From Streptomyces sp. NBC_01317 (lineage in GTDB: Bacteria > Actinomycetota > Actinomycetes > Streptomycetales > Streptomycetaceae), in the NCBI RefSeq assembly GCF_035961655.1, contig NZ_CP108393.1, forward strand, positions 7,649,501-7,713,500: DNA of 64,000 nt. The letters are read 5' to 3'. Under the pieces are notes generated by a model. The model had not been told where the DNA came from, did no database searches, and saw nothing but the letters and a program-made list of their open reading frames with translations. The position numbers were made by a program, and so were the translations under genes. Numbering within the stretch: the stretch's first letter is position 1; each line of letters begins with the position of its first letter. Positions 3,505-63,139 of the stretch are shown piece after piece.

Positions 3505-4986
3505 ATGTCAGCAGCGATACCCGGACCCGCACCCGCACCGCACGCCCGCTTCCTGGTGGCGGTGCTCGCCTTCTGCGGTGTGGTCGTCGCGGTCATGCAG
3601 ACGCTGGTCGTGCCGCTGCTGCCGCACATCCCCCAGCTCACCGGCGCCACCCCGACGGCCGCCAGCTGGCTGGTCACCGTCACCCTCCTCACCGGCGCCG
3701 TCTGCACCCCCGTGCTCGGGCGCGTCGGCGACATGTACGGCAAGCGGCGGGTGCTCCTCGCCTCCCTCGGGGTGCTGGTGGCCGGATCCGTCCTGTGCGC
3801 GATCAGCTCCCAGATCACCGTGCTCATCGCGGGCCGCGCCCTCCAGGGAGCGGCGCTCGCGGTTGTCCCGCTCGGCATCAGCATCATGCGCGACGAGCTG
3901 CCGCCCGTCCGGGTCCTGCCCTCGATCGGGCTGATGAGTTCGACGCTCGGCATCGGCGCGGCCATCGGTCTGCCGGTCGCCGCGCTGGTGGTGGAGCACT
4001 ACGACTGGCACACCATGTTCTGGGCGTCGGCCGGGCTGGGGCTGCTGGACATGGTGCTCGTCCTGCTCGTCGTACCGGAATCGCCGGTGCGCTCGCGCGG
4101 GCGCTTCGACGCCCTCGGCGCGCTGGGGCTGTCCGCCGCCCTGGTGAGCCTGCTGCTCGCGGTCACCCAGGGCGGCTCGTGGGGCTGGACGTCCGTCCGC
4201 ACGCTGGGTCTGCTGGTCCTCGCCGTCCTGATCGGACTGGTCTGGGGCGCGTACGAACTCCGTACCACCAGCCCCATGGTCGACCTGCGGGTGTCCTCGA
4301 AGCCCGCCGTCCTGCTGACGAACATCGCCGCCCTCCTGATCGGCTTCGCCTTCTACGCCAACTCCCTGTCCACCGCGCAGATGGTGCAGGAGCCGAAGAG
4401 CACCGGGTACGGTCTCGGCGCGTCGATCGTCGTCAGCGGGCTGTGCCTGCTGCCCGGCGGGCTCGCGATGGTCGCCCTGTCGCCGGTGTCGGCGCGGATC
4501 TCCGCGAAGTACGGGCCCAAGACGGCCCTGGCGCTCGCCGCCGCCATCCTGGCCGTGGGCTATGTGGTGCGGTTCTTCACCAGCCACCAGCTCTGGACGA
4601 TCATCCTCGGCGCGACCGTCGTCGCGGCGGGGACGGCCATCGCCTACTCGGCGCTGCCCGCCCTCGTCATGCGCGCGGTGCCGGTGACCGAGACGGGTGC
4701 GGCGAACGGGCTCAACACCCTGATGCGGTCGGTCGGGCAGGCGTTCTGTAGTGCCGTGGTCGCCGCGGTGCTGGCCGACGTCACCTTCCAGGTGGACGGG
4801 CGGACCGCCCCCACCCTCCACGCGTATCTGCTCGTCTTCCTCATCGCGGCGGGCGCGGCGCTGCTCGCGCTGGCCGTCACCCTGTGTCTGCCGCGTCAGC
4901 GCCCCGTGGCCACCGGTACGGTCGGGCGGGACAGGGCGCGAGTGACGTCGGCGGGCGTCCGCCCTGGCCGCCAGGAGGGCGCATGA
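3505..4986 (+). CDS. MFS drug-efflux transporter, DHA2 (EmrB/QacA) family
   Basis: 493 residues, about 14 hydrophobic spans, as usual for the DHA2 group. Motif A is seen as GRVGDMYGKRR at residues 72-82 between spans 2 and 3, and the first span is FLVAVLAFCGVVVAVMQTLVVPLLP. ATG at 3505 is preceded by GGAGAG. Expected role: proton-driven export of a small amphiphilic compound across the cytoplasmic membrane. The stop overlaps the start of the TetR gene (ATGA), so exporter and regulator form one operon, and the operator-like elements upstream suggest ligand-induced derepression. Substrate unknown. Confidence 0.9.
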   Translation: MSAAIPGPAPAPHARFLVAVLAFCGVVVAVMQTLVVPLLPHIPQLTGATPTAASWLVTVTLLTGAVCTPVLGRVGDMYGKRRVLLASLGVLVAGSVLCAISSQITVLIAGRALQGAALAVVPLGISIMRDELPPVRVLPSIGLMSSTLGIGAAIGLPVAALVVEHYDWHTMFWASAGLGLLDMVLVLLVVPESPVRSRGRFDALGALGLSAALVSLLLAVTQGGSWGWTSVRTLGLLVLAVLIGLVWGAYELRTTSPMVDLRVSSKPAVLLTNIAALLIGFAFYANSLSTAQMVQEPKSTGYGLGASIVVSGLCLLPGGLAMVALSPVSARISAKYGPKTALALAAAILAVGYVVRFFTSHQLWTIILGATVVAAGTAIAYSALPALVMRAVPVTETGAANGLNTLMRSVGQAFCSAVVAAVLADVTFQVDGRTAPTLHAYLLVFLIAAGAALLALAVTLCLPRQRPVATGTVGRDRARVTSAGVRPGRQEGA

Positions 4987-54586: not shown

Positions 54587-55681
54587 TCAGCCGACGCGCG
54601 GCCCGAGAGCGAACCGGTCGGCGGCCGGGGCCCCGCCGACCAGGTCGGCCGCCAGTTCCCCGATGACCGAGGCGAACTTGAAACCGTGTCCGGAGAAGCC
54701 GGCCAGCACGGTCAGGGGCCCCTCCCGGTCGATGACGAAGTGGTGGTCGGGAGTGGTGGTGTAGAGGCAGGTACTCGCCACCGGCGCCGTGGCGTCCACG
54801 CCGGGCAGCCAGCGCTCGGCGTACCGCTGGACCTCGGCGAGTGAGTGAGGGACGACGGTACGGTCCCGGTGGTCCGGATCGACGACGGGCCCGACCCCGT
54901 GGAAACCGACCTTGACCCCGTCGTCGCTGCCGAGTCCGTAGATCCCGCCCTCGTCCGCGAGGCCGGCCCCTGGATGGTGGATGAAGCTCGGCCAGCCGAG
55001 CGCGTCCGGTGCCGGGAAGTGCGCGGGCTGCTCCTGGGTGACCCGCATCGCCGGCAGGCCGGACACGAGCCCGGACAGCCGGCCCGGCGCCCAGCCGCCG
55101 ACCGCGACCACCACCGAGTCGGCGGTGAACGCCTCCTCGTCGTCCGTCACGATCTCGGCGCGCCCGCCGCGTACCGACAGCTTGGTCACCTTCACGCCGT
55201 GCCGGATACGGGCGCCGTGCTGCCGTGCTGCCTGCTGGAACGCCGCGACCGCGCGGTCGGCGTGCACCCGGCCGGCCTCGGGATGGAACAGCGCGGTGGT
55301 GTCGGCCCGCAGCCCCGGCCACCGCTCGGCGGCCTGCGCCGGGGTGAGGAACTCCGACGGCCGGCCGGCCGCGCTGAGGACGTCGTGGAGCGCGGAGGTC
55401 GCGGCGGCCGGGCCGTGGTCGACCGCGCCCGTCAGCTCCAGCACCTGGCGTCCGGTCTCCTCTTCGAGGCGCCGCCACAGCGGCAGGGCCCGTACCGCCA
55501 GCGAGACGTAGAACGGGTCCGCGTAGGCCAGGCGGAAGATCCGCGAGCTGCCGTGCGAACTGCCCCGGTCGTGCCCGGGCCCGAACTGCTCGAAGAGCGT
55601 GACCTGTTCGCCCCGTGCGGCCAGGTGCCAGGCCGCCGAGGAGCCCATGACCCCTCCTCCGACGACGATGTGATGAACCAC
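54587..55681 (-). CDS. N-methyl-L-tryptophan/sarcosine oxidase-like FAD enzyme (SolA/MSOX type)
   Basis: 364 residues. GTG at 55681 opens with MVHHIVVGGGVMGSSAAWHLAARGEQVTLFEQF, the FAD motif; AAAGGAT is upstream. STCLYTTTPDHHFVIDREGPL contains the Cys expected to bind FAD covalently in monomeric sarcosine oxidases, and FSGHGFKFASVIGELAADLV is the C-terminal flavin-side signature. Oxidises a secondary N-methyl amine, giving formaldehyde and peroxide. The gene follows the LLM monooxygenase by 53 bases, so the two act probably on the same organic compound, one on C-S or C-H bonds and this on an amine. Confidence 0.87.
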   Translation of the reverse strand: MVHHIVVGGGVMGSSAAWHLAARGEQVTLFEQFGPGHDRGSSHGSSRIFRLAYADPFYVSLAVRALPLWRRLEEETGRQVLELTGAVDHGPAAATSALHDVLSAAGRPSEFLTPAQAAERWPGLRADTTALFHPEAGRVHADRAVAAFQQAARQHGARIRHGVKVTKLSVRGGRAEIVTDDEEAFTADSVVVAVGGWAPGRLSGLVSGLPAMRVTQEQPAHFPAPDALGWPSFIHHPGAGLADEGGIYGLGSDDGVKVGFHGVGPVVDPDHRDRTVVPHSLAEVQRYAERWLPGVDATAPVASTCLYTTTPDHHFVIDREGPLTVLAGFSGHGFKFASVIGELAADLVGGAPAADRFALGPRVG

Positions 55682-55734: not shown

Positions 55735-57054
55735 TCAGGAACCGGTGGCGGCGACCGGTCGGTCGCGGGCCGGCAGTTCGAGTCCGAGGTTCTCCCGCAG
55801 TGTGGTGCCGGTGTAGTCGGCGGCGACGATCTTCCGCTTGCGCAGTTCGTGCAGCAGGCCGTTGACGGCGAAGTCGTGCTGGAGCGGGTCCGCGAGGCCG
55901 CTCAGCGTGATGACGTCCAGCACACCCGCCCGGAACCGCTCCTCGACGGCGTCGGCGAGTTGCTCGGGTGTGCCGGCGACCGCCCAGTGACCGGTGTCCT
56001 GGGCCGCGACGACCAGCTCCCTGAGGGTGTAGCCCTGGCGCGCGTACCCGGCGAAGATCTCCACCCGGCCGCGACGCCGGTTCACCGAGCTGACGTCGGG
56101 CAACAGGCTCTCCGGCAGCTTCTCGTCGAGCGGGATCTCCGACAGGTCGACCCCGCCGCCGAGCATGTCGGCCACCTGGGCGCGGCCGCGCTCGAAGTCG
56201 ACCGACTCGCGCCTCTCCCGTACGAGCCGCCGCGCCTCCTCCTCGGTGGCGCCGTACGTGGCGTGGAGCGAGCTGAAGATCAGCGGCAGCCCGCCGGGCC
56301 GCCCCCACCGCTCGGCCTGGCTCCGGATCTTCCGGGTGAAGTCCACCGCGATGCCGAGGGTCGGGAGGGAGGTGAAGACGATCTCGGCGTAGCGGGCGCC
56401 GAGCGCCGTCCCGGCGGCGGACTGCCCTGCCTGGATCTGGACCGGGCGGCGTTGCGGCAGCGGCGGGATGTTCAGCGGGCCGGCCACGGTGAAGAACCGT
56501 CCGGAGTGGTCGATCGGGCGCACCCGGTCGCGGTCCAGCACCGCCTTTCCGTCCGCACCGGCGGTCAGCGCGCCGGTTTCCCAGCTGTCCCACAGCGCGT
56601 TGACCACCTCCAGCGATTCCTCGGCGCGCGCGTAGCGGTCCTCCGGGCTGGGCAGGCCGCCGGGCCCGAAGTTCTCCTCACCGATCGATGAGGTCACCAG
56701 ATTCCAGGCCGCCCGCCCGTTGCTGACGTGATCGAGGGTGCCGAACAGCCGGGCCAGGTTGTACGGATGGTGGAACGTGGTCGATACGGTGGCGATGAGG
56801 CCGATCCGCGAGGTCACCTGGCTCAGCGCCGAGACGAACACCAGCGGCTCCTGGGACCCGATCGCGCCCTGGGCGCCGAAGCTCAGCAGATCGGCGGTGA
56901 ACAGCGCGTCGATCCTGGCGGCCTCCGCGAGCTTCGCCACGCGTACGGCGGTGTCCAGGGTGGACCGGGTCGGATCGACCGCCAGGTCGTACGTCTCCGA
57001 CGTACCGCCGGCTCCGGTCACGGTTTTCAGCGTTCTGGGCCGCTTCGCGCTCAC
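55735..57054 (-). CDS. LLM-class flavin-dependent monooxygenase (NtaA/SnaA/DszA family)
   Basis: 439 residues from GTG at 57054 (MSAKRPRTLKTV). Family pattern: LAEAARIDALFTADLLSF, SQVTSRIGLIATVSTTFHHPYNLARLFGTLDHVSNGRAAWNLVTSSIGEENFG, LWDSWETGAL, PVQIQAGQSAAGTALGARYAEIVFTSLP and QRPLQHDFAVNGLLHELRKRKIV-like C-terminus. Uses FMNH2 supplied by a separate reductase to oxidise organosulfur or polyamino-acid-type substrates. It is preceded by a sulfur leader peptide ORF and a long hairpin, and heads the LLM-SolA-GNAT operon. Confidence 0.9.
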   Translation of the reverse strand: MSAKRPRTLKTVTGAGGTSETYDLAVDPTRSTLDTAVRVAKLAEAARIDALFTADLLSFGAQGAIGSQEPLVFVSALSQVTSRIGLIATVSTTFHHPYNLARLFGTLDHVSNGRAAWNLVTSSIGEENFGPGGLPSPEDRYARAEESLEVVNALWDSWETGALTAGADGKAVLDRDRVRPIDHSGRFFTVAGPLNIPPLPQRRPVQIQAGQSAAGTALGARYAEIVFTSLPTLGIAVDFTRKIRSQAERWGRPGGLPLIFSSLHATYGATEEEARRLVRERRESVDFERGRAQVADMLGGGVDLSEIPLDEKLPESLLPDVSSVNRRRGRVEIFAGYARQGYTLRELVVAAQDTGHWAVAGTPEQLADAVEERFRAGVLDVITLSGLADPLQHDFAVNGLLHELRKRKIVAADYTGTTLRENLGLELPARDRPVAATGS

Positions 57055-57114
57055 GACTGGTCCATTCTCACCGGTGCCGGCGATATCGGGGGGCGGCGAA
57101 ATGCTGGGGCGAAC

Positions 57115-57161
57115 CACACCGGGACAGGCCGGATCGGAGCCGGCCGGGTGTCCGTGGTGTG
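57115..57161 (-). terminator. Long hairpin, candidate attenuator between leader peptide and LLM gene
   Basis: On the plus strand CACACC, GGACA and GGCCGG (57115-57132) pair with CCGGCC, TGTCC and GGTGTG (57140-57161) in order, with only short bulges; the loop is ATCGGAG. At about 17 paired bases this is the strongest hairpin in the 210-base gap between the leader stop (57266) and the LLM start (57054). Reading leftward it lies where a leader-coupled terminator or anti-terminator should be. Confidence 0.6.
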
Positions 57162-57265
57162 TACGGGCCTGCCGGACCGGATCAGGACAGCGTCCGGGCA
57201 GGCGAGGGCAACGAGAGGAAGACGCGACGACGCGGAAGGGGAACGCCGGGGGGAACGCCGAAGGG

Positions 57266-57388
57266 TCAGCGACAGAGCGCGGTGTGGGTCCGGCACAGGT
57301 CCACATGCCGGCGCCTGGTCCGGACCGGCGGCGCGATCGCGGCGCGGCCCTGCCCGGAAAGGGCGGACCTGGCGTGCGATGCCTTCAC
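57266..57388 (-). CDS. Sulfur-type leader peptide ORF (40 aa, ends RRHVDLCRTHTALCR)
   Basis: GTG at 57388, GGGGAG five bases upstream, TGA at 57266. The last 16 residues read TRRRHVDLCRTHTALCR-like, matching the RRHVDLxRxxxALC(R) signature of the short 'putative leader peptides' that precede sulfur assimilation and organosulfur genes in actinobacteria. Two Cys codons sit in the conserved tail. A -35 TTGACA is at 57449-57454 and TACGTT at 57424-57429 (minus strand). The next gene downstream is the LLM monooxygenase. Translation stalling at Cys codons would report cysteine shortage; that mechanism is known for mycobacterial cysteine-rich leaders and inferred here. Confidence 0.85.
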   Translation of the reverse strand: MKASHARSALSGQGRAAIAPPVRTRRRHVDLCRTHTALCR

Positions 57389-57423
57389 GGTGACTCCCCA
57401 TCGGTCCTGGTGTGAGCAGGACG

Positions 57424-57454
57424 AACGTACGTGGCAGGTGGGCGGGCTTGTCAA
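57424..57454 (-). promoter_or_regulatory. Promoter of the leader peptide-LLM operon
   Basis: Minus strand: TTGACA (plus-strand TGTCAA, 57449-57454), a perfect -35, and TACGTT (plus-strand AACGTA, 57424-57429) as -10, 19 bases apart. The start of transcription would fall near 57417, about 30 bases before the leader GTG. Confidence 0.6.
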
Positions 57455-57479
57455 GAGCGAGTCTCACGAGACGGAACGC

Positions 57480-57533
57480 GGGACGGAAGACGGGACGGAA
57501 GACGGGACGAAAGACAGGGCGGAAGACGGGACG
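57480..57533. repeat. Four tandem 12-bp repeats GGGACGGAAGAC
   Basis: GGGACGGAAGAC at 57480 and 57492, GGGACGAAAGAC at 57504, AGGGCGGAAGAC at 57516, then a partial GGGACG. They occupy most of the gap between the cysteine synthase stop (57552) and the -35 of the leader promoter (57454) on the minus strand. Could be a clustered activator site or simple slippage. Confidence 0.85.
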
Positions 57534-57551
57534 CCGATCGAACGTCCCCCG

Positions 57552-58544
57552 TCACGCCCCGGGTTCGTCCAGCAGGCCCAGCTCGCGCAGCCAGTTGTCG
57601 TCGAACACCTTGGAGAGATAGTTGCGGCCGGAATCCGGCAGCAGCGCGACCACCAGGTCCTCCGGAGTCAGTTCCGCCGCCACCCGCAGCGCGGCGGCCA
57701 CGGCGGTCCCGGCGGAGCCGCCGACCAGCAGGCCCTCCTCCCGGGCCAGCCGCCGCGCCGTCCGCAGGGAGTCACGGTCGCTGATCCGCTCGAACCGGTC
57801 CACGACCTCCGGGTGGTAGGACTGCGGCCAGGTGTCGTCCACCGTCTCCGGGTGCCGGAAGTGGCCGATGCTCTCGACGTAGTACGGGCTTCCGTCGCCG
57901 CCCGAGTAGACCGAGGACTCCGGGTCGGCGCCGACCACGGTCACCCGGCCGCCGCTCACCTCCTTGAGGAACTCGCCGGTCCCGGTGATGGTGCCGCCGG
58001 TGCCCACGCCGGACACCAGATGGGTGATCCGTCCGTCGGTCTGCCGCCAGATCTCCGGCCCGGTGGTGCGGTAGTGCGCCAGCGGATTGGCCGGGTTGTC
58101 GTACTGGTTGGCCAGCCAGCCCCCGGGCGTCTCGGCGGCGACCCGGGTGGCCACCGAGTGCACATGATCGGGATGCTCGCGCGGTACGTCGCTGGGGCAG
58201 ACGACGACCTCCGCGCCGTACGCACGCAGGACGGCGACCTTCTCCGCGCTGCTCTTCTCCGGGATCGCGAAGACACACCGGTAGCCGCGCTGCGCGGCGA
58301 CCATGGCCAGGCCGACGCCCGTGTTGCCCGAGGTGCCCTCGACGATGGTGCCGCCGGGCAGCAGTTCCCCGGACTCCTCGGCCGCTTCGACCATCGCCAG
58401 CGCGATGCGGTCCTTGACGCTGCCGCCGGGGTTGACGTACTCCAATTTCACGCAGACCGGCGCGACGGCTCCGTCGGTGACGCGGTTGAGGCGCACCAGC
58501 GGGGTGTTGCCGACCGCGTCGGTCAACGAAGCGTGGACGTCCAA
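57552..58544 (-). CDS. PLP-dependent cysteine synthase / cystathionine beta-synthase-like enzyme
   Basis: 330 residues from TTG at 58544, seven bases after AAGGAG, giving MDVHASLTDAVGNTPLVRLNRVTDG, the family's normal start; GTG at 58598 has no ribosome site. Lys of NPGGSVKDRIAL forms the Schiff base; EGTSGNTGVGLAMVAA and SGVGTGGTITGTGEFLKE hold the PLP phosphate. No regulatory CBS pair follows, so it is the 330-residue catalytic core. Condenses O-acetylserine (or serine) with sulfide (or homocysteine). Flanked on both sides by leader-peptide operons, it is the assimilation step of the island. Confidence 0.9.
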   Translation of the reverse strand: MDVHASLTDAVGNTPLVRLNRVTDGAVAPVCVKLEYVNPGGSVKDRIALAMVEAAEESGELLPGGTIVEGTSGNTGVGLAMVAAQRGYRCVFAIPEKSSAEKVAVLRAYGAEVVVCPSDVPREHPDHVHSVATRVAAETPGGWLANQYDNPANPLAHYRTTGPEIWRQTDGRITHLVSGVGTGGTITGTGEFLKEVSGGRVTVVGADPESSVYSGGDGSPYYVESIGHFRHPETVDDTWPQSYHPEVVDRFERISDRDSLRTARRLAREEGLLVGGSAGTAVAAALRVAAELTPEDLVVALLPDSGRNYLSKVFDDNWLRELGLLDEPGA

Positions 58545-58920
58545 TGCGGTGCTCCTTGTGTGCGGCTCTGTCACCGGTTCCGGGGTGTCCACGGGCACAC
58601 CCCGGGCAGGTCAGGGCGGACGAGGAGACGGACCGGGCCCGGGGTGATCACCAGGCCACGGTAGCGGGGCGGGTCGGATCCCATCGTTTCACTCGTATGA
58701 AACATCGGCTGGAACATCGGCGGCCGGGCCGGACGGCGAGGGCATGGCACGGCGGGCCAGGAGGGCCGCCCGAGCGGTACGGGCGGTTCCGTGCGGCATT
58801 GTTCACAGCGGGACGAACGGTTAACGTGAAATCCGATCACCCGCTTCGGCGGCAGGCCTCGGACCCGGTACGGCCACGGCCCGGCGATCGACCCGACAAC
58901 GGCGAGGCGAGGTGAACGGT
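58545..58920. promoter_or_regulatory. Divergent regulatory region between cysteine synthase and plus-strand leader
   Basis: About 375 bases. The palindrome GTTTCACTCGTATGAAAC (58686-58703) is a strong operator candidate. Rightward, TTGTTC (58799-58804) and TAACGT (58822-58827) are 17 bases apart, a plausible promoter about 90 bases before the leader ATG. No gene seen. Confidence 0.5.
58686..58703. promoter_or_regulatory. Perfect inverted repeat GTTTCA-N6-TGAAAC
   Basis: Two 6-base arms with a six-base centre (CTCGTA), symmetric within the intergenic space of the divergent sulfur genes. Size and position fit a dimeric HTH regulator controlling cysteine synthase and the plus-strand operon. The regulator is not in this window. 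Confidence 0.55.
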
Positions 58921-59061
58921 ATGCGGGCGCGACGTCCCGGCGGACGCGACCGTCGCATGCCGGACCACGGCGGGTCCTTCGAACTCGGCGTCGCCCGGCG
59001 CCATGTCGACCTGCTGCGCGTGAGCAGCGCACTGTGTACGAGGACGTCTCCGGGCCGCTGA
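58921..59061 (+). CDS. Second sulfur-type leader peptide ORF (46 aa, contains ARRHVDLLRVSSALC)
   Basis: ATG at 58921 with GAGG eight bases upstream (an internal ATG at 58957 would shorten it by 12). Residues 25-39 are ARRHVDLLRVSSALC, the same signature as the minus-strand leader; it then ends TRTSPGR before TGA at 59059-59061. A promoter-like pair is at 58799-58827. The MFS-LLM-LLM genes follow from 59262. Only one Cys codon here. The longer frame in which others might annotate the region was not read as coding. Together with the first leader this frames cysteine synthase symmetrically. Confidence 0.83.
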   Translation: MRARRPGGRDRRMPDHGGSFELGVARRHVDLLRVSSALCTRTSPGR

Positions 59062-59261
59062 GCGTGCCCTCGCCGCCTGTGCCGATCGGCGCCGCGACAG
59101 CGATCTGATCGCGCCCCGCCCGCTCGTACCGGCGCACCCGAAGCAGTGGCGTACCCACACGTCCGCGTACCGGCGCGCGCTTCCCCTCTCCTGAGGCTCC
59201 CGAGGCCGCCGTGTCCCGCCCCGCGCCCCCGCCCCTACCCCACCCGACCGAGAGGTTCACG

Positions 59262-60569
59262 GTGTCCAAGAGCCCCGCCTCATCAGGGCTGTTCGCCGCC
59301 CTGCGGGTCCGTGACTACCGCGTCTACTGGAGTACGGGCCTGGTGTCGAACGTCGGCACGGCCATGCAGGGCGTCGCACTGGACTGGTTCGTGCTCGACC
59401 TGACGCACAGCGGGACCGCCGTCGGCTGGGCGGCGGGCCTCCAGTTCGCCCCCGTCCTGCTGTTCGGCCTGTGGGGAGGCGTCCTCGCCGACCGGTACGA
59501 CCGGCGCACCCTCCTGCTGTGGGCCCAGTCGCTCTACGCGGTCCAGGCGCTGCTCCTCACCGTCACCGTCCTGTCGGGCCACGCGCCGCTCTGGTGGATC
59601 TACCTGCTGTCCTTCGCGCTGGGCTGTGTGTTCACGGTGGAGAACCCCGCGCGGCTCTCCTTCGTCACGGAACTGGTCGGCCCCTCCCTGATCGCCAACG
59701 CGGCGGGCCTCAACATCCTGTCCCTGAACGCCGCGCGACTGATCGGACCGGCGATCGCGGGCGTACTGATCGCCGTGATCGGTACGGGCTGGGTCTTCGC
59801 GCTGAACGCGGTGTCCTTCACGGTGGTGACCGCCGGCCTGCTGACGATCCGTCCGAAGGCGGTACGGAGCCCGGGGGAGCGGCCACCGTGGGCGGGTGCG
59901 GGCGCGGCCGGGCTGCGCTATGTCGCCGCCCGTCCCGAACTGGTCGGAGTGTTCACGATCTTCGGTCTGGTCGCCACCTTCGCGGTCAACTTCTCCACCA
60001 CACTGACCCTGTTCGCCGGCCGGGTCTTCGACGTCGGCTCCAGCGGCCTCGGATTCATGTCGACCGCGCTGTCCGTCGGTACGATCGCCGGCACGCTCGT
60101 CGCCACCCGCCGCGCCTCGCCCCGGGTGCGGACCGTGGTCATCGGCGCGGTGCTGTTCGGTGTCAGCGAGGCGCTGGCCGCGCTCATGCCCTCGTACCCC
60201 ACCTTCCTGCTCATGCTGCTGCCGGCCGGATTCACGCTGATGACGCTCAACACGGCGGTCAGCGCCTTCGTCCAGTCGGAGGTCAGCGACGCCATGCGCG
60301 GCCGGGTGATGGCCGTCTACACGGTGATCTCGATGGGGGGCGCTCCGCTCGGCGGTCCCGTGATCGGCTGGATCTCCGAGCACGCGGGGGTGCGCTGGGG
60401 GCTGGCGTCGGGGGGCGGGGCGGCCGTCCTGGCCGCCGTCACCGTGGCTCTCTGGCTGGTACGGCACCAGGCCCTCACCCCTCGCCCGTACGTCCACGAC
60501 CCGGCGGCGGACGACGGTCCCGTACCGTCCCCGCCGCCCGCTCCCACTCCCACGGCCTCTGCCAACTAG
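59262..60569 (+). CDS. MFS transporter (MFS_3/EntS-like)
   Basis: 435 residues from GTG at 59262, six bases after AGAGG (GTG at 59211 would add 17 Pro-rich residues). Twelve hydrophobic spans; LFAALRVRDYRVYWSTGLVSNVGTAMQGVALDWFVLDLTHSG is the conserved entry, and motif A GVLADRYDRR is at 73-82. The C-terminal tail is Pro-rich (PSPPPAPTPTAS). These carriers mostly export drugs or siderophores. In the sulfur operon it could import a sulfur source or expel the desulfurised product. Genes for two LLM enzymes follow. Confidence 0.88.
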   Translation: MSKSPASSGLFAALRVRDYRVYWSTGLVSNVGTAMQGVALDWFVLDLTHSGTAVGWAAGLQFAPVLLFGLWGGVLADRYDRRTLLLWAQSLYAVQALLLTVTVLSGHAPLWWIYLLSFALGCVFTVENPARLSFVTELVGPSLIANAAGLNILSLNAARLIGPAIAGVLIAVIGTGWVFALNAVSFTVVTAGLLTIRPKAVRSPGERPPWAGAGAAGLRYVAARPELVGVFTIFGLVATFAVNFSTTLTLFAGRVFDVGSSGLGFMSTALSVGTIAGTLVATRRASPRVRTVVIGAVLFGVSEALAALMPSYPTFLLMLLPAGFTLMTLNTAVSAFVQSEVSDAMRGRVMAVYTVISMGGAPLGGPVIGWISEHAGVRWGLASGGGAAVLAAVTVALWLVRHQALTPRPYVHDPAADDGPVPSPPPAPTPTASAN

Positions 60570-60606: not shown

Positions 60607-61764
60607 ATGACCGACCCCGACGACGGTCTTCCGCGCCTTCCCCGCCTGCACCTCGCCCTGGAGGTGGACGGCGACGGCGCCCACCCCGCCGCCTGGCGCC
60701 ACGCGGGGCGCCCGCCCGGCGCCGTCCTGACTCCCCGGGCGCTGCGGGACGTGGTCGCCGCGGCCGAGAACGCCGGCTTCGGCCTCGTCACCTTCGCCGA
60801 CTCACCGCTGCCGCCCGGCGCGGACCCGGACGGCTCCCCGTACAAGACCCCGTCCGACGCCGCCGGACCGGCCGGACGCATCGAGGCCGGAACCCGCGCC
60901 GCCTACGTCTCCGTCCTCACCGACCGGATCGGCCTCGCGCCCGTCCTGCACGTCGCCCCCACGGAACCGTTCCACCTCGCCACCCAGCTCGCGAGTCTCG
61001 ACCACGCCTCCCACGGCCGGGCCGGCTGGGTGGTCGGCGCGGCGGCCGGCGAGGCCGCCCTCGCCACCGTCGGACGAGCGCCGCTTTCCGCCGCCGAACT
61101 GCGCCGAGAGACGGCCGACGTCATCGACACCGCCCGCGCCCTGTGGGACTCGTGGGAGGACGACGCGGTCATCAAGGACGTCGCGACCGGCCGTTTCCTG
61201 GACGCGGACCGGGTGCATCACATCGACTTCGAGGGCGCGTCCTTCACCGTCAAGGGCCCCCTGATCACCCCGCGCCCGCCGCAGGGCCAGGTCGTCGTCC
61301 TGGCCCCGGACGCCCTGGAGGCCGACACACGCGCCGACGTGGTCCTGGTGGCGCGGCCCGACCTCGCCGCCGTCGCGGCCCGCGCGGCCACGGCCAGGGA
61401 GTCCGGCGCGCCCCTGGTGTTCGCCGAGGTGGAGGTGGTCCTCGACGCCGACGCCCCGGCCGCCGACCGGCTCGCCGCACTGGACGAGGCCGCCGACTGG
61501 CCCGGGTCCGGACGGCTGCGCCACGTCGGCTCCCCGCAGTCCCTGGTCGACCTGCTCCGCCACCTGGCCGAGTCGGTCGACGGGGTCAGGCTGCACCCCG
61601 CCGTCCTCGCCGCCGACCTGCCGGTCCTGATCGAGCACGTCCTGCCGGAGCTGTCCGCCACGGGCCTGTGGCACGCGCCGCGCCCCGGCGGCACCCTGCG
61701 CGAAACACTCGGTCTTCCCCGTCCCGCCAACCGCTTCGCCGCCCCCGCGGCCACCCACGCCTGA
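60607..61764 (+). CDS. LLM-class flavin-dependent oxidoreductase, divergent
   Basis: 385 residues, ATG at 60607 after GGAGG. Motifs of the family are visible (FGLVTFADSPLPP, TDRIGLAPVLHVAPTEPFHLATQLASLDHASHGRAGWVVGAAAGEAAL, ALWDSWEDDAV, DRVHHIDFEGASFTVKGPLITPRPPQGQ), but the second half is shortened and lacks the usual FMN-phosphate segment seen in the two other LLM genes here (the R-x-x-P...AGDSD region). It may therefore be a partner or a degenerate paralogue. Located between MFS and the second LLM, all same strand, with 10 bases to the next start. Confidence 0.82.
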   Translation: MTDPDDGLPRLPRLHLALEVDGDGAHPAAWRHAGRPPGAVLTPRALRDVVAAAENAGFGLVTFADSPLPPGADPDGSPYKTPSDAAGPAGRIEAGTRAAYVSVLTDRIGLAPVLHVAPTEPFHLATQLASLDHASHGRAGWVVGAAAGEAALATVGRAPLSAAELRRETADVIDTARALWDSWEDDAVIKDVATGRFLDADRVHHIDFEGASFTVKGPLITPRPPQGQVVVLAPDALEADTRADVVLVARPDLAAVAARAATARESGAPLVFAEVEVVLDADAPAADRLAALDEAADWPGSGRLRHVGSPQSLVDLLRHLAESVDGVRLHPAVLAADLPVLIEHVLPELSATGLWHAPRPGGTLRETLGLPRPANRFAAPAATHA

Positions 61765-61774
61765 GGTGAGTGCC

Positions 61775-63139
61775 ATGCCGGAAACCCCTCCCCAGCTCCA
61801 CCTCGGCGTCTTCTTCACGGGCGTCGGGCCGCAGTTGATCTGGACCGACCCGGACGCGCTCTCCCACACGGCGGTCGACACGTTCGTCCAGATCGCGCAG
61901 ACCCTCGAACGCGGCCTGTTCGACGCGTTCTTCCTCGGTGAGGGACTGCGCGTACGGGAGAACCGCGGCCGGGTCTTCGACCTCGACGTCGCCGGCCGCC
62001 CCGACGCGATCACCCAGCTCTCCGCGCTCGCCGCCGTCACCGAGCGGATCGGCCTGGTGGCGACCCAGAACACCACGTACAACTATCCGGCCGATCTGGC
62101 CCGCCGTCTGGCGAGCCTCGATCTGCTGTCCGAGGGCCGGGCCGGCTGGAACATCGTCACCACCGACAACGCCTGGACGGGCGCCAACTTCCGCCACGGC
62201 GGCTGGCTGGAGCACGAGCGCCGTTACGAGCGGGCCGGGGAGTTCGTCGAAGCGGCCAAGGAGCTGTGGTCGTCCTGGGCCCCGGACGCCGTCGCGCCCG
62301 GCGGGCGGGCCGCGAGCTGGGCCCGTACCGGTTCCGTCACCCCGGTCGGGCGGGACAGCGATCTTGTACGGCTGCGCGCCACGGCCACCGTGCCGGGCAG
62401 CCGCCAGGGCCGTCCCGTGCTCTTCCAGGCCGGGGACTCGGACGGCGGCCGGGAACTGGCGGCCCGCCACGCCGACGTGGTGTTCTCCGCCAACGCGGAG
62501 TACGGCAAGGCCGTCGCGTACGCCGCCGACCTGCGCGAACGGCTGGCCCGCCACGGCCGCACACCGGACTCGCTGCGGATCCTGCCGGGCGCGAGCCTCA
62601 TCCTCGGCGACACACCGGCCGAGGCGGAGGAGAAGGCCCGCTGGGTACGGCGGGAGCAGGTCAACGGTCCCCGGGCGATCGCCTTCCTGGAGCAGTACTG
62701 GGGCACCGACCTCTCCGCCTACGACCCGGACGGACCGCTGCCCGACATCGAGCCCGGTGAGGACGAACTCGATCCCTCCCGGGGCACGATCGCGATCTCG
62801 CACCGCAGCGGCAAGCTGGCCCTGATCCAGAAGTGGCGCGACCTCGCGGCCGAACGCGGCCTGTCGATCCGTGAGCTGGTGCTCGAAGTGTCGCCGGGCC
62901 ACCCGTCCTTCGTCGGCACCCCTTCGACCGTCGCCGACGAGTGGACCCGCTATGTCCGCACCCGCGCCGTCGACGGCTTCAACCTCCTGCCGCACCTGCT
63001 CCCCGCCTCGCTCACGGACATCGTCGACAAGCTCGTCCCGGAACTCCAGGAACGGGGTGTGTACCGGACCGCTTACGAGGGCACCACCCTGCGCGAACAC
63101 CTCGACCTGCCGCCGCTTCCCGCCGTCCCGGGCGCCTGA
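61775..63139 (+). CDS. LLM-class flavin-dependent monooxygenase (NtaA/SnaA/DszA family)
   Basis: 454 residues from ATG at 61775, GAGG eight bases upstream (GTG at 61766 is the alternative). Motifs: LERGLFDAFFLGEGLR, TERIGLVATQNTTYNYPADLARRLASLDLLSEGRAGWNIVTTDNAWTGANF, LWSSWAPDAV, GRPVLFQAGDSDGGRELAARHADVVF and VDGFNLLPHLLP...LQERGVYRTAYEGTTLREHL. Full-length family member; uses reduced flavin and O2 to attack an organosulfur, chelator-type or similar compound. Last gene of the plus-strand leader operon. No flavin reductase gene is visible in the window. Confidence 0.92.
   Translation: MPETPPQLHLGVFFTGVGPQLIWTDPDALSHTAVDTFVQIAQTLERGLFDAFFLGEGLRVRENRGRVFDLDVAGRPDAITQLSALAAVTERIGLVATQNTTYNYPADLARRLASLDLLSEGRAGWNIVTTDNAWTGANFRHGGWLEHERRYERAGEFVEAAKELWSSWAPDAVAPGGRAASWARTGSVTPVGRDSDLVRLRATATVPGSRQGRPVLFQAGDSDGGRELAARHADVVFSANAEYGKAVAYAADLRERLARHGRTPDSLRILPGASLILGDTPAEAEEKARWVRREQVNGPRAIAFLEQYWGTDLSAYDPDGPLPDIEPGEDELDPSRGTIAISHRSGKLALIQKWRDLAAERGLSIRELVLEVSPGHPSFVGTPSTVADEWTRYVRTRAVDGFNLLPHLLPASLTDIVDKLVPELQERGVYRTAYEGTTLREHLDLPPLPAVPGA

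Follow-up and report, generated by a model that had tools for sequence, protein, structure and literature searches.

What do the short leader peptides ahead of sulfur-type operons in Streptomyces sense, and does their placement around a cysteine synthase-like gene have a meaning of its own? This question is raised by a stretch of 64,000 nucleotides from Streptomyces sp. NBC_01317 (genome size 8.07 Mb; contig NZ_CP108393.1, positions 7,649,501 to 7,713,500), hereafter called the window, in which two short open reading frames (ORFs), leader 1 on the minus strand and leader 2 on the plus strand, lie on either side of a cysK-like gene, each ahead of an operon with monooxygenase genes (Table 1, in window coordinates). 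A previous sequence-only reading of the window had taken them for a symmetric pair of cysteine-responsive leaders framing cysK. Both belong with a known family of leader peptides, and what our analysis adds to the knowledge of this family is a near-absolute use of UGU for one particular cysteine codon, held in a register that is fixed by the peptide.

The two short ORFs are present with the ribosome sites and promoter-like sequences that the sequence-only reading had described, and its view that their signature marks sulfur-type leader peptides of a recognized actinobacterial family was borne out by the scores against the NCBIfam model NF042934 (cis_reg_atten, "putative leader peptide") as well as by the sulfur-type operons behind them. 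Leader 2 reaches 31.5 bits, above the cut-off of 27, whereas leader 1 scores 24.0 bits in the window search and 23.1 bits in the genome search; because it stays under the curated cut-off despite its register, motif, and UGU, it is considered a relative rather than a formal member. In the whole genome, 10 matches exceed the cut-off (loci L001 to L010), and the minus-strand leader of the window comes in addition, below it. The genes downstream of these 10 are cysO-cysM, a cysteine dioxygenase, a monooxygenase, a flavin mononucleotide (FMN) reductase, a DUF1684 gene, and a sulfite reductase, as well as the MFS-monooxygenase operon of the window, an ABC permease, a glutathione S-transferase (GST)-type gene, and a rhodanese gene. 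A location ahead of sulfur-metabolism genes, which we take to be a defining trait of NF042934, is therefore found both for the window, where the monooxygenase operons qualify by family inference, and elsewhere (cysO-cysM, cysteine dioxygenase, sulfite reductase, rhodanese). At E ≤ 0.001, the model matched each of 121 genomes sampled within the genus, with 2 to 13 matches each, and none of 14 control genomes; at E ≤ 10, weak matches appeared in 10 of these 14, none above the cut-off. Among 246 genomes sampled across the class, 154 had a match at E ≤ 1e-4, and in 151 of these it exceeded the cut-off. The window pair are ordinary additions to a known and widely distributed family, and both are best read as putative cis-acting leader peptides of the NF042934 kind. 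In two further loci of the same genome, L014 and L021, short open frames match the family weakly (14.3 and 11.7 bits) and are possibly diverged leaders.

The codon comparison covers 185 leader loci, namely 11 from the genome itself, 59 from two family searches (30 from the genus and 29 from the class), and 80 plus 35 that were fetched in addition; matches L012 to L025 of the own genome (E 0.04 to 7) are outside this count. Loci from other genomes were taken from the best-scoring listed family matches among several hundred, and weak members are under-represented. The search expression imposed Leu at +1 and Arg at +3 (counted from the Asp of VDLxR as position 0) and required a Cys 3 to 7 residues past the latter; the +9 Cys is also where the family model stops. 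Since neither the model nor the expression uses DNA, the codon at +9 was not picked by the selection of loci.

A Cys was found nine codons after the Asp in 184 of the 185 leaders, and its codon is TGT in 183 of them and TGC in 1 (L261). The similarity filter, which required less than 70% identity over 75 nt and kept 55 of 184 leaders (38 of 148 in the first round), left TGT in 54 of 55. By comparison, Cys codons in the downstream ORFs of 148 loci are TGC in 276 and TGT in 33 cases, giving a binomial P of 1.7e-51 that ignores the remaining relatedness among leaders. A weak codon bias of the leaders does not account for the U at +9, because C-ending codons are favored in the same leaders at the optional Cys of +2 (present in 97 of 184; 94 TGC, 3 TGT), at +7 (36 TGC, 8 TGT), at His(-2) (127 CAC, 14 CAT), and at Asp(0) (146 GAC, 38 GAT). 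Cys codons just past +9 also lean to TGT (14 TGT and 8 TGC at +10; 13 TGT and 20 TGC at +11). The base that follows the +9 codon is C in 130, T in 39, and A in 15 leaders and never G (n = 184), compared with G after 124 of 308 Cys codons in downstream ORFs. All of 15 further leader hits in other loci, some of which may come from genomes already sampled, carry TGT as well, and so do L365 and L367, which have Phe at +1 and were missed by the expression, and L188, which was missed by its position. The only leader lacking the +9 Cys, L009 (own genome, C1:679483-679533; reverse strand of its locus, ~1501-1551), precedes a gene with a GST C-terminal domain and has either degenerated or represents a variant that works through a stop codon. 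In L272, a tandem duplication of the leader tail, including ATCTGTCGGTGA and the bases that follow it, lies just after the leader stop.

NF042934 describes short ORFs that carry the RxxVDLxR..C block and precede sulfur genes, but as a protein-only model it holds no codon information, and the UGU lock with its non-G next base is visible only in DNA. We met no mention of this lock in those parts of the literature on such leaders that were accessible, and Canestrari 2020, which reportedly deals with poly-Cys leaderless ORFs of mycobacteria, may already note it. The sequence-only reading, in which both operons respond to the level of cysteine or cysteinyl-tRNA, is probably right in broad terms; in leader 1, it places the sensing at two Cys codons. 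A Cys codon is indeed very likely the sensing element, but it is better placed at the single UGU at Asp+9, since both window leaders have this codon, whereas the Cys at +2 is optional and mostly TGC. Leader 1 contains two separated Cys codons and leader 2 one, at Asp+9.

At Arg(-4), Asp(0), Leu(+1), Arg(+3), and Cys(+9), codon positions 1 and 2 hardly change, whereas the third position is variable in all of them but +9, and the pattern of substitutions indicates that the constraint is one on the peptide plus a single added base. It should be noted that the fixed peptide is partly a selection effect, because the model favors the whole block and the expression imposed Leu and Arg(+3); residue 39 of leader 2 aligns to position 19 of NF042934, i.e., the end of the model at the +9 Cys. 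Poly-Cys leaders in the class sample, of the forms LTKRRAVDLCRVAGCCCCCCSC and RRAVDLCRVAGCCCCCCSC, similar to the poly-Cys ORFs published for mycobacteria and probably from mycobacterial genomes, have the same RRxVDLxR register as the window leaders. In all 9 leaders with at least 3 Cys in a row, the codon at +9 is TGT and the one at +8 is TGC, which suggests that the sensing event may take place at +9 in single-Cys and poly-Cys leaders alike. Besides this common register, there are differences: the window leaders have one or two Cys codons and no run of them, a ribosome site of their own, a 5' untranslated region as judged by the promoter-like hexamers, and no predicted pairing of the leader with the downstream ribosome site, the sequestering of which is presumably a trait of the mycobacterial poly-Cys attenuators. 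Likewise, neither leader reaches the cut-off of 45 bits of the NCBIfam models Ms5788A and Ms4527A (leader 1, 19.5 bits with Ms5788A; leader 2, 24.8 bits with Ms4527A). Outside the actinobacteria, the uORFC-8-2 motif of Rhodobacterales cysS leaders also has Cys codons in a short upstream ORF, for which ribosome-mediated attenuation was proposed, but there UGC dominates and an intrinsic terminator follows (PMC8632094), while here UGU is near-absolute and no terminator was found in the window. A preference for UGU is therefore not general to Cys leaders.

ARAGORN, applied to the loci that hold the genome's 66 tRNA matches, called two tRNA-Cys genes. Both have the anticodon GCA, and UGU would therefore be read by wobble. 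The two genes, in L302 (C1:6804852) and L321 (C1:5347335), are clearly different from each other, and the latter lies ~28 kb from the cysO-cysM leader. A dedicated UGU-reading tRNA was considered and rejected, as only GCA tRNA-Cys was found by ARAGORN; the anticodon loop of one match that it left uncalled (L336) reads TCC by eye, which is not Cys. Frame-shifting at the UGU was likewise rejected, the P-site codons (mostly AUC, CUC, and CUG) being judged by eye not to re-pair. Of the Cys codons, a wobble-read UGU with C, U, or A behind it would plausibly be decoded most slowly and thereby sharpen a sensor of supply.

We propose that a ribosome translating the leader would hold the nascent RxxVDLxR in its exit tunnel as the codon at Asp+9 enters the A site, which, as UGU with a non-G next base, would be a wobble-read Cys codon in a context taken to be weak. 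If Cys-tRNA(Cys) is short, the ribosome would dwell at this codon and most likely bar Rho from the spacer, and RNA polymerase would reach the operon genes. If Cys-tRNA is plentiful, the ribosome would complete the leader, leave at the nearby stop, and expose the C-rich, G-poor spacer, and with the ribosome gone, Rho would end transcription. We lean with modest confidence towards this reading, in which a shortage of Cys-tRNA slows the ribosome at the UGU, in register with the nascent peptide, and thereby permits expression of the operon, Rho probably being blocked in the process. It is built on family membership, the Asp-to-Cys register, the peptide constraint, the UGU, the non-G base, the spacer composition, the lack of a terminator in the window, and the lack of a conserved structure in the one leader group analyzed for it; pausing of the ribosome, Cys-tRNA as the signal, and Rho as the effector would be the steps that connect them. 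Bolder, and offered tentatively as something possible rather than expected, is the view that across Actinomycetes, poly-Cys leaders included, RxxVDLxR sets the ribosome such that only the +9 UGU with its non-G neighbor senses and UGC does not. The leader would then read the wobble decoding of tRNA-Cys (its charging and perhaps its sulfur modification) and not just the amount of cysteine.

The spacers behind the leader stops fit a role of Rho, whose gene is present in the genome. A C-rich, G-poor untranslated region follows both window leaders, and over the 125 nt past the stop, C minus G is +0.138 in 38 divergent leaders and +0.168 in all 148, compared with +0.044 for a control set of 228 other upstream regions, drawn from the window and the fetched loci (Mann-Whitney p 1.4e-8), for which genes were called by a simple script and leader-preceded genes were left in. 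Between positions 56900 and 59400, no terminator-like site was found, where shuffled sequences give only 0.7, and none of 4227 Rfam families matched the window at its gathering score. Folding with a thermodynamic model was done for 7 own leaders (an eighth, L003, was dropped, as its start was not found); first-gene starts were set by visual inspection, and the shuffles of the spacers preserved only the single-letter composition. The predicted pairing of the ribosome site with the leader is 0.00 for both window leaders, L004, and L010, and 0.02 for L001. Like tna, which senses tryptophan at a stop codon, the window leaders have a C-rich region past the leader stop and no terminator, with the difference that the action of Rho is here something we infer. 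Rho-dependent attenuation of the tna type was proposed in 2005 for actinobacterial cys leaders without terminators (PMC1262725), and the spacer, terminator, and folding results taken together would favor this idea.

Several observations weigh against the proposed ribosome slowing at UGU and its link to Rho. Tuning of speed alone would not demand UGU so strictly, and in poly-Cys leaders, the +9 codon stands out less, as TGT also occurs at +10 in 8 of the 9. L009 has a TAA stop at +9 and the only Cys of its block at +5, so that a Cys at +9 is not universal. C exceeds G in 71% of the control regions too, and the spacer composition is therefore a shift rather than a switch; C-rich spacers may simply mean that a region is untranslated. 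Moreover, some pairing of the ribosome site with the leader is predicted in 2 of the 7 folded leaders (L002 and L006), and mycobacterial members of the family are reported to act on translation, cysteine biosynthetic genes of Mycobacterium smegmatis being described as translation-attenuated (PMC13236596). These last two points belong to an alternative that we consider unlikely but credible, namely translation attenuation as in the mycobacterial poly-Cys ORFs, in which the leader would fold over the ribosome site of the first gene unless a ribosome pauses at Cys. The RRxVDLxR block in the poly-Cys leaders of the class sample speaks for it as well, and the pairing in L002 (0.62 versus 0.41, standard deviation (sd) 0.24) and L006 (0.20 versus 0.07, sd 0.07) lies above that of shuffles. 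It is opposed by the absent or minimal pairing in the other five leaders, by the variable distance from UGU to the start codon (220 and 227 nt for the two window leaders; between 95 and 219 nt among the members of one gene group), and by the spacers of the cysO-cysM group (36 of 44, near-identical ones dropped), whose alifold energy of -46.5 does not stand out from that of shuffled alignments (-47.3 +/- 4.8). The same alignment has no conserved hairpin, which, along with the lack of terminator-like sites in the window, makes classical attenuation by an intrinsic terminator behind the leader the least probable of all mechanisms considered, even though trp and ilv leader attenuators, candidate or known, have been described in Streptomyces (PMC8079986, PMC1262725); the 2005 survey likewise saw no terminators behind cys leaders (PMC1262725).

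Other alternatives concern the sensing step. Rather unlikely in our view is an arrest by the nascent chain, in which RxxVDLxR would respond to cysteine, sulfide, or a similar small molecule within the tunnel and the UGU would merely slow the A site. It would account for the synonymous variation at Arg, Val, Asp, and Leu, for the constant 9-residue spacing up to the Cys codon, and for L009 retaining the block with a stop at +9, but common ancestry of the leaders could also preserve the peptide, and part of the block owes its constancy to the model and the expression, as outlined above. A leader that responds to tRNA quality, with UGU requiring ms2i6A37 in tRNA-Cys, would read the sulfur status through thiolation plus charging. 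Precedent exists for a codon-specific sensing of an amino acid in Bacillus subtilis (PMC3862929), and the genome has a MiaB gene (487 bits, cut-off 355). Both tRNA-Cys genes carry A36-A37-A38, as determined by eye, a feature linked to modification by MiaA/MiaB, so that sulfur modification of tRNA-Cys could matter; however, MiaB is common, with its model over the cut-off in 9 of 14 control genomes, and we regard the explanation as improbable. Even less is to be expected of UGU-H, i.e., UGU with a non-G next base, as an RNA motif for protein binding or transcription pausing, with an incidental reading frame. The third base at +9 is kept beyond coding need, the next base is never G, and the U of leader 2 is predicted to be paired (1.00 versus 0.42 in shuffles), but in leader 1 this value is only 0.02, the motif always stands the same number of codons from the peptide-constrained block, and nearby conserved bases are otherwise explained by the needs of the peptide or by GC-rich codon use.

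With regard to the second part of the question, the leaders do point outward, as the sequence-only reading had it, but their symmetric placement does not amount to a functional unit: leader 1 shares the strand of the cysK-like gene and is located beyond its 3' end, whereas leader 2 is divergent from this gene, and a leader of its own was looked for and not found for the cysK-like gene. The gene between the leaders, read before as cysteine synthase, encodes a PALP enzyme of the cysteine synthase/cystathionine beta-synthase group that scores below the cut-offs of the cysK, cysM, and cystathionine beta-synthase models (best, cystathionine beta-synthase with 441.9 bits versus 510). Monooxygenase genes do follow both leaders, although only leader 1 is directly succeeded by one: the minus operon consists of an NtaA/DmoA-type monooxygenase and a flavin adenine dinucleotide (FAD) oxidoreductase, and the plus operon of an MFS transporter followed by two monooxygenases. 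Judged by their families, the monooxygenases (LLM1 to LLM3) are probably of the sulfur-scavenging type.

A comparison of the window with 5 close cysK orthologues (85-98% identity; the protein of Streptomyces sp. SID3212 is 98% identical) revealed leaders on both sides only in the window, the near-identical L026, and L030. The plus-type leader is kept in L026, L027, and L030, in the latter directly before LLM2, which is partly masked in that record. In L028, the LLM genes and an MFS stretch, for which the match starts only at residue 160, are neighbors of cysK; no leader could be recognized there, and the sole leader of this locus is ~5.5 kb away. L029 contains an LLM1-type leader (3578-3622) with no coding gene evident behind it on the same strand, apparently an orphan. 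In L027 (4976-5888), a leader, RLHVDLARTSASLC, with TGT is followed by a TauD dioxygenase gene and then by the cysK orthologue, which may therefore sit in a leader-controlled operon in that genome. None of the 37 more distant cysK loci scanned (L031-L066 and L086, of 75 fetched; L067-L085 and L087-L105 were outside the scan) has a leader nearby, the single pattern hit, in L062, lying inside a long frame and not being counted. Of 295 genomes searched within the genus, 7 have LLM1 at E ≤ 1e-100 (L106-L112, counting the own genome). A recognizable leader stands upstream of it in the own locus, L107, L110, and L111, whereas the search expression gave none in L108 and L109 and one only ~1.3 kb upstream in L112. 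A symmetric cysK unit, as proposed earlier, was rejected on these counts: the leaders accompany monooxygenase operons, cysK is a recurrent neighbor, and the framing is incidental. In L114 (3389-3448) and L115 (812-859), leaders of a further type, RRRHIDLKRS(T/A)SC(L/F)CR with TGT at +9, are located close to relatives of the MFS gene.

The start and ribosome-site region of leader 1 is also present in orthologous loci. Of its promoter-like hexamers, TTGACA-N19/20-TACGTT was found again in L026, L107, and L029 but not in L110 and L111 (5 other loci compared); the match in L029 is perhaps due to chance, because it lies only 105 nt before the leader stop. GGTTA(A/C)CGTGAA occurs upstream of the plus-type leader in all 4 copies compared, including that of the window. 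Since a strict sigma-70 scan called no promoter, the label "promoter-like" rests on the hexamers and their recurrence. Between the cysK-like gene and the leader 1 promoter, imperfect repeats of a GTCTTCCGTCCC-like unit are found on the minus strand (~57470-57540).

Table 1. Features of the two leaders, their operons, and the cysK-like gene in the window.
Feature	Position	Strand	Details
Leader ORF 1	57266..57388	-	40 aa, VKASHARSALSGQGRAAIAPPVRTRRRHVDLCRTHTALCR; GTG start at 57388, TGA stop; NF042934-type
Leader ORF 2	58921..59061	+	46 aa, MRARRPGGRDRRMPDHGGSFELGVARRHVDLLRVSSALCTRTSPGR; ATG start at 58921, TGA stop; NF042934 member
Ribosome site of leader 1, GGGGAG	57394..57399	-	Sequence
Ribosome site of leader 2, GAGG	58909..58912	+	Sequence
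Promoter-like TTGACA-19-TACGTT, leader 1	57424..57454	-	Sequence, recurrence in other loci
Promoter-like TTGTTC-17-TAACGT, leader 2	58799..58827	+	Sequence, GGTTA(A/C)CGTGAA kept
RxxVDLxR..C block of leader 1, Arg -4 to Cys +9	57272..57313	-	
RxxVDLxR..C block of leader 2, Arg -4 to Cys +9	58996..59037	+	
Asp+9 Cys codon of leader 1	57272..57274	-	TGT, next base C
Asp+9 Cys codon of leader 2	59035..59037	+	TGT, next base A
Spacer, leader 1 to first gene	57058..57265	-	First 130 nt C 62, G 33; candidate Rho loading region
Spacer, leader 2 to first gene	59062..59261	+	First 130 nt C 60, G 38
LLM1, NtaA/DmoA-family FMN-dependent monooxygenase	55735..57057	-	TIGR03860, 349.3 bits, cut-off 279.7
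FAD-dependent oxidoreductase (DAO)	54587..55681	-	Pfam PF01266
PALP enzyme, cysteine synthase/cystathionine beta-synthase group	57552..58544	-	TTG start, AAGGAG
MFS transporter (MFS_3), first gene of plus operon	59262..60569	+	
LLM2, luciferase-like monooxygenase	60607..61764	+	PF00296; TIGR03860, 181 bits, under cut-off
LLM3, NtaA/DmoA-family FMN-dependent monooxygenase	61766..63139	+	TIGR03860, 392 bits, over cut-off

For a leader family that has been described loosely so far, these results provide a prediction at the level of a single base: a synonymous change from U to C at one position should break the sulfur regulation of the operons behind the leaders. They also suggest that poly-Cys and single-Cys leaders may have one common sensing site, with the nascent peptide taking part. 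If this is true, a two-fold synonymous choice would be under near-absolute selection across a bacterial class.

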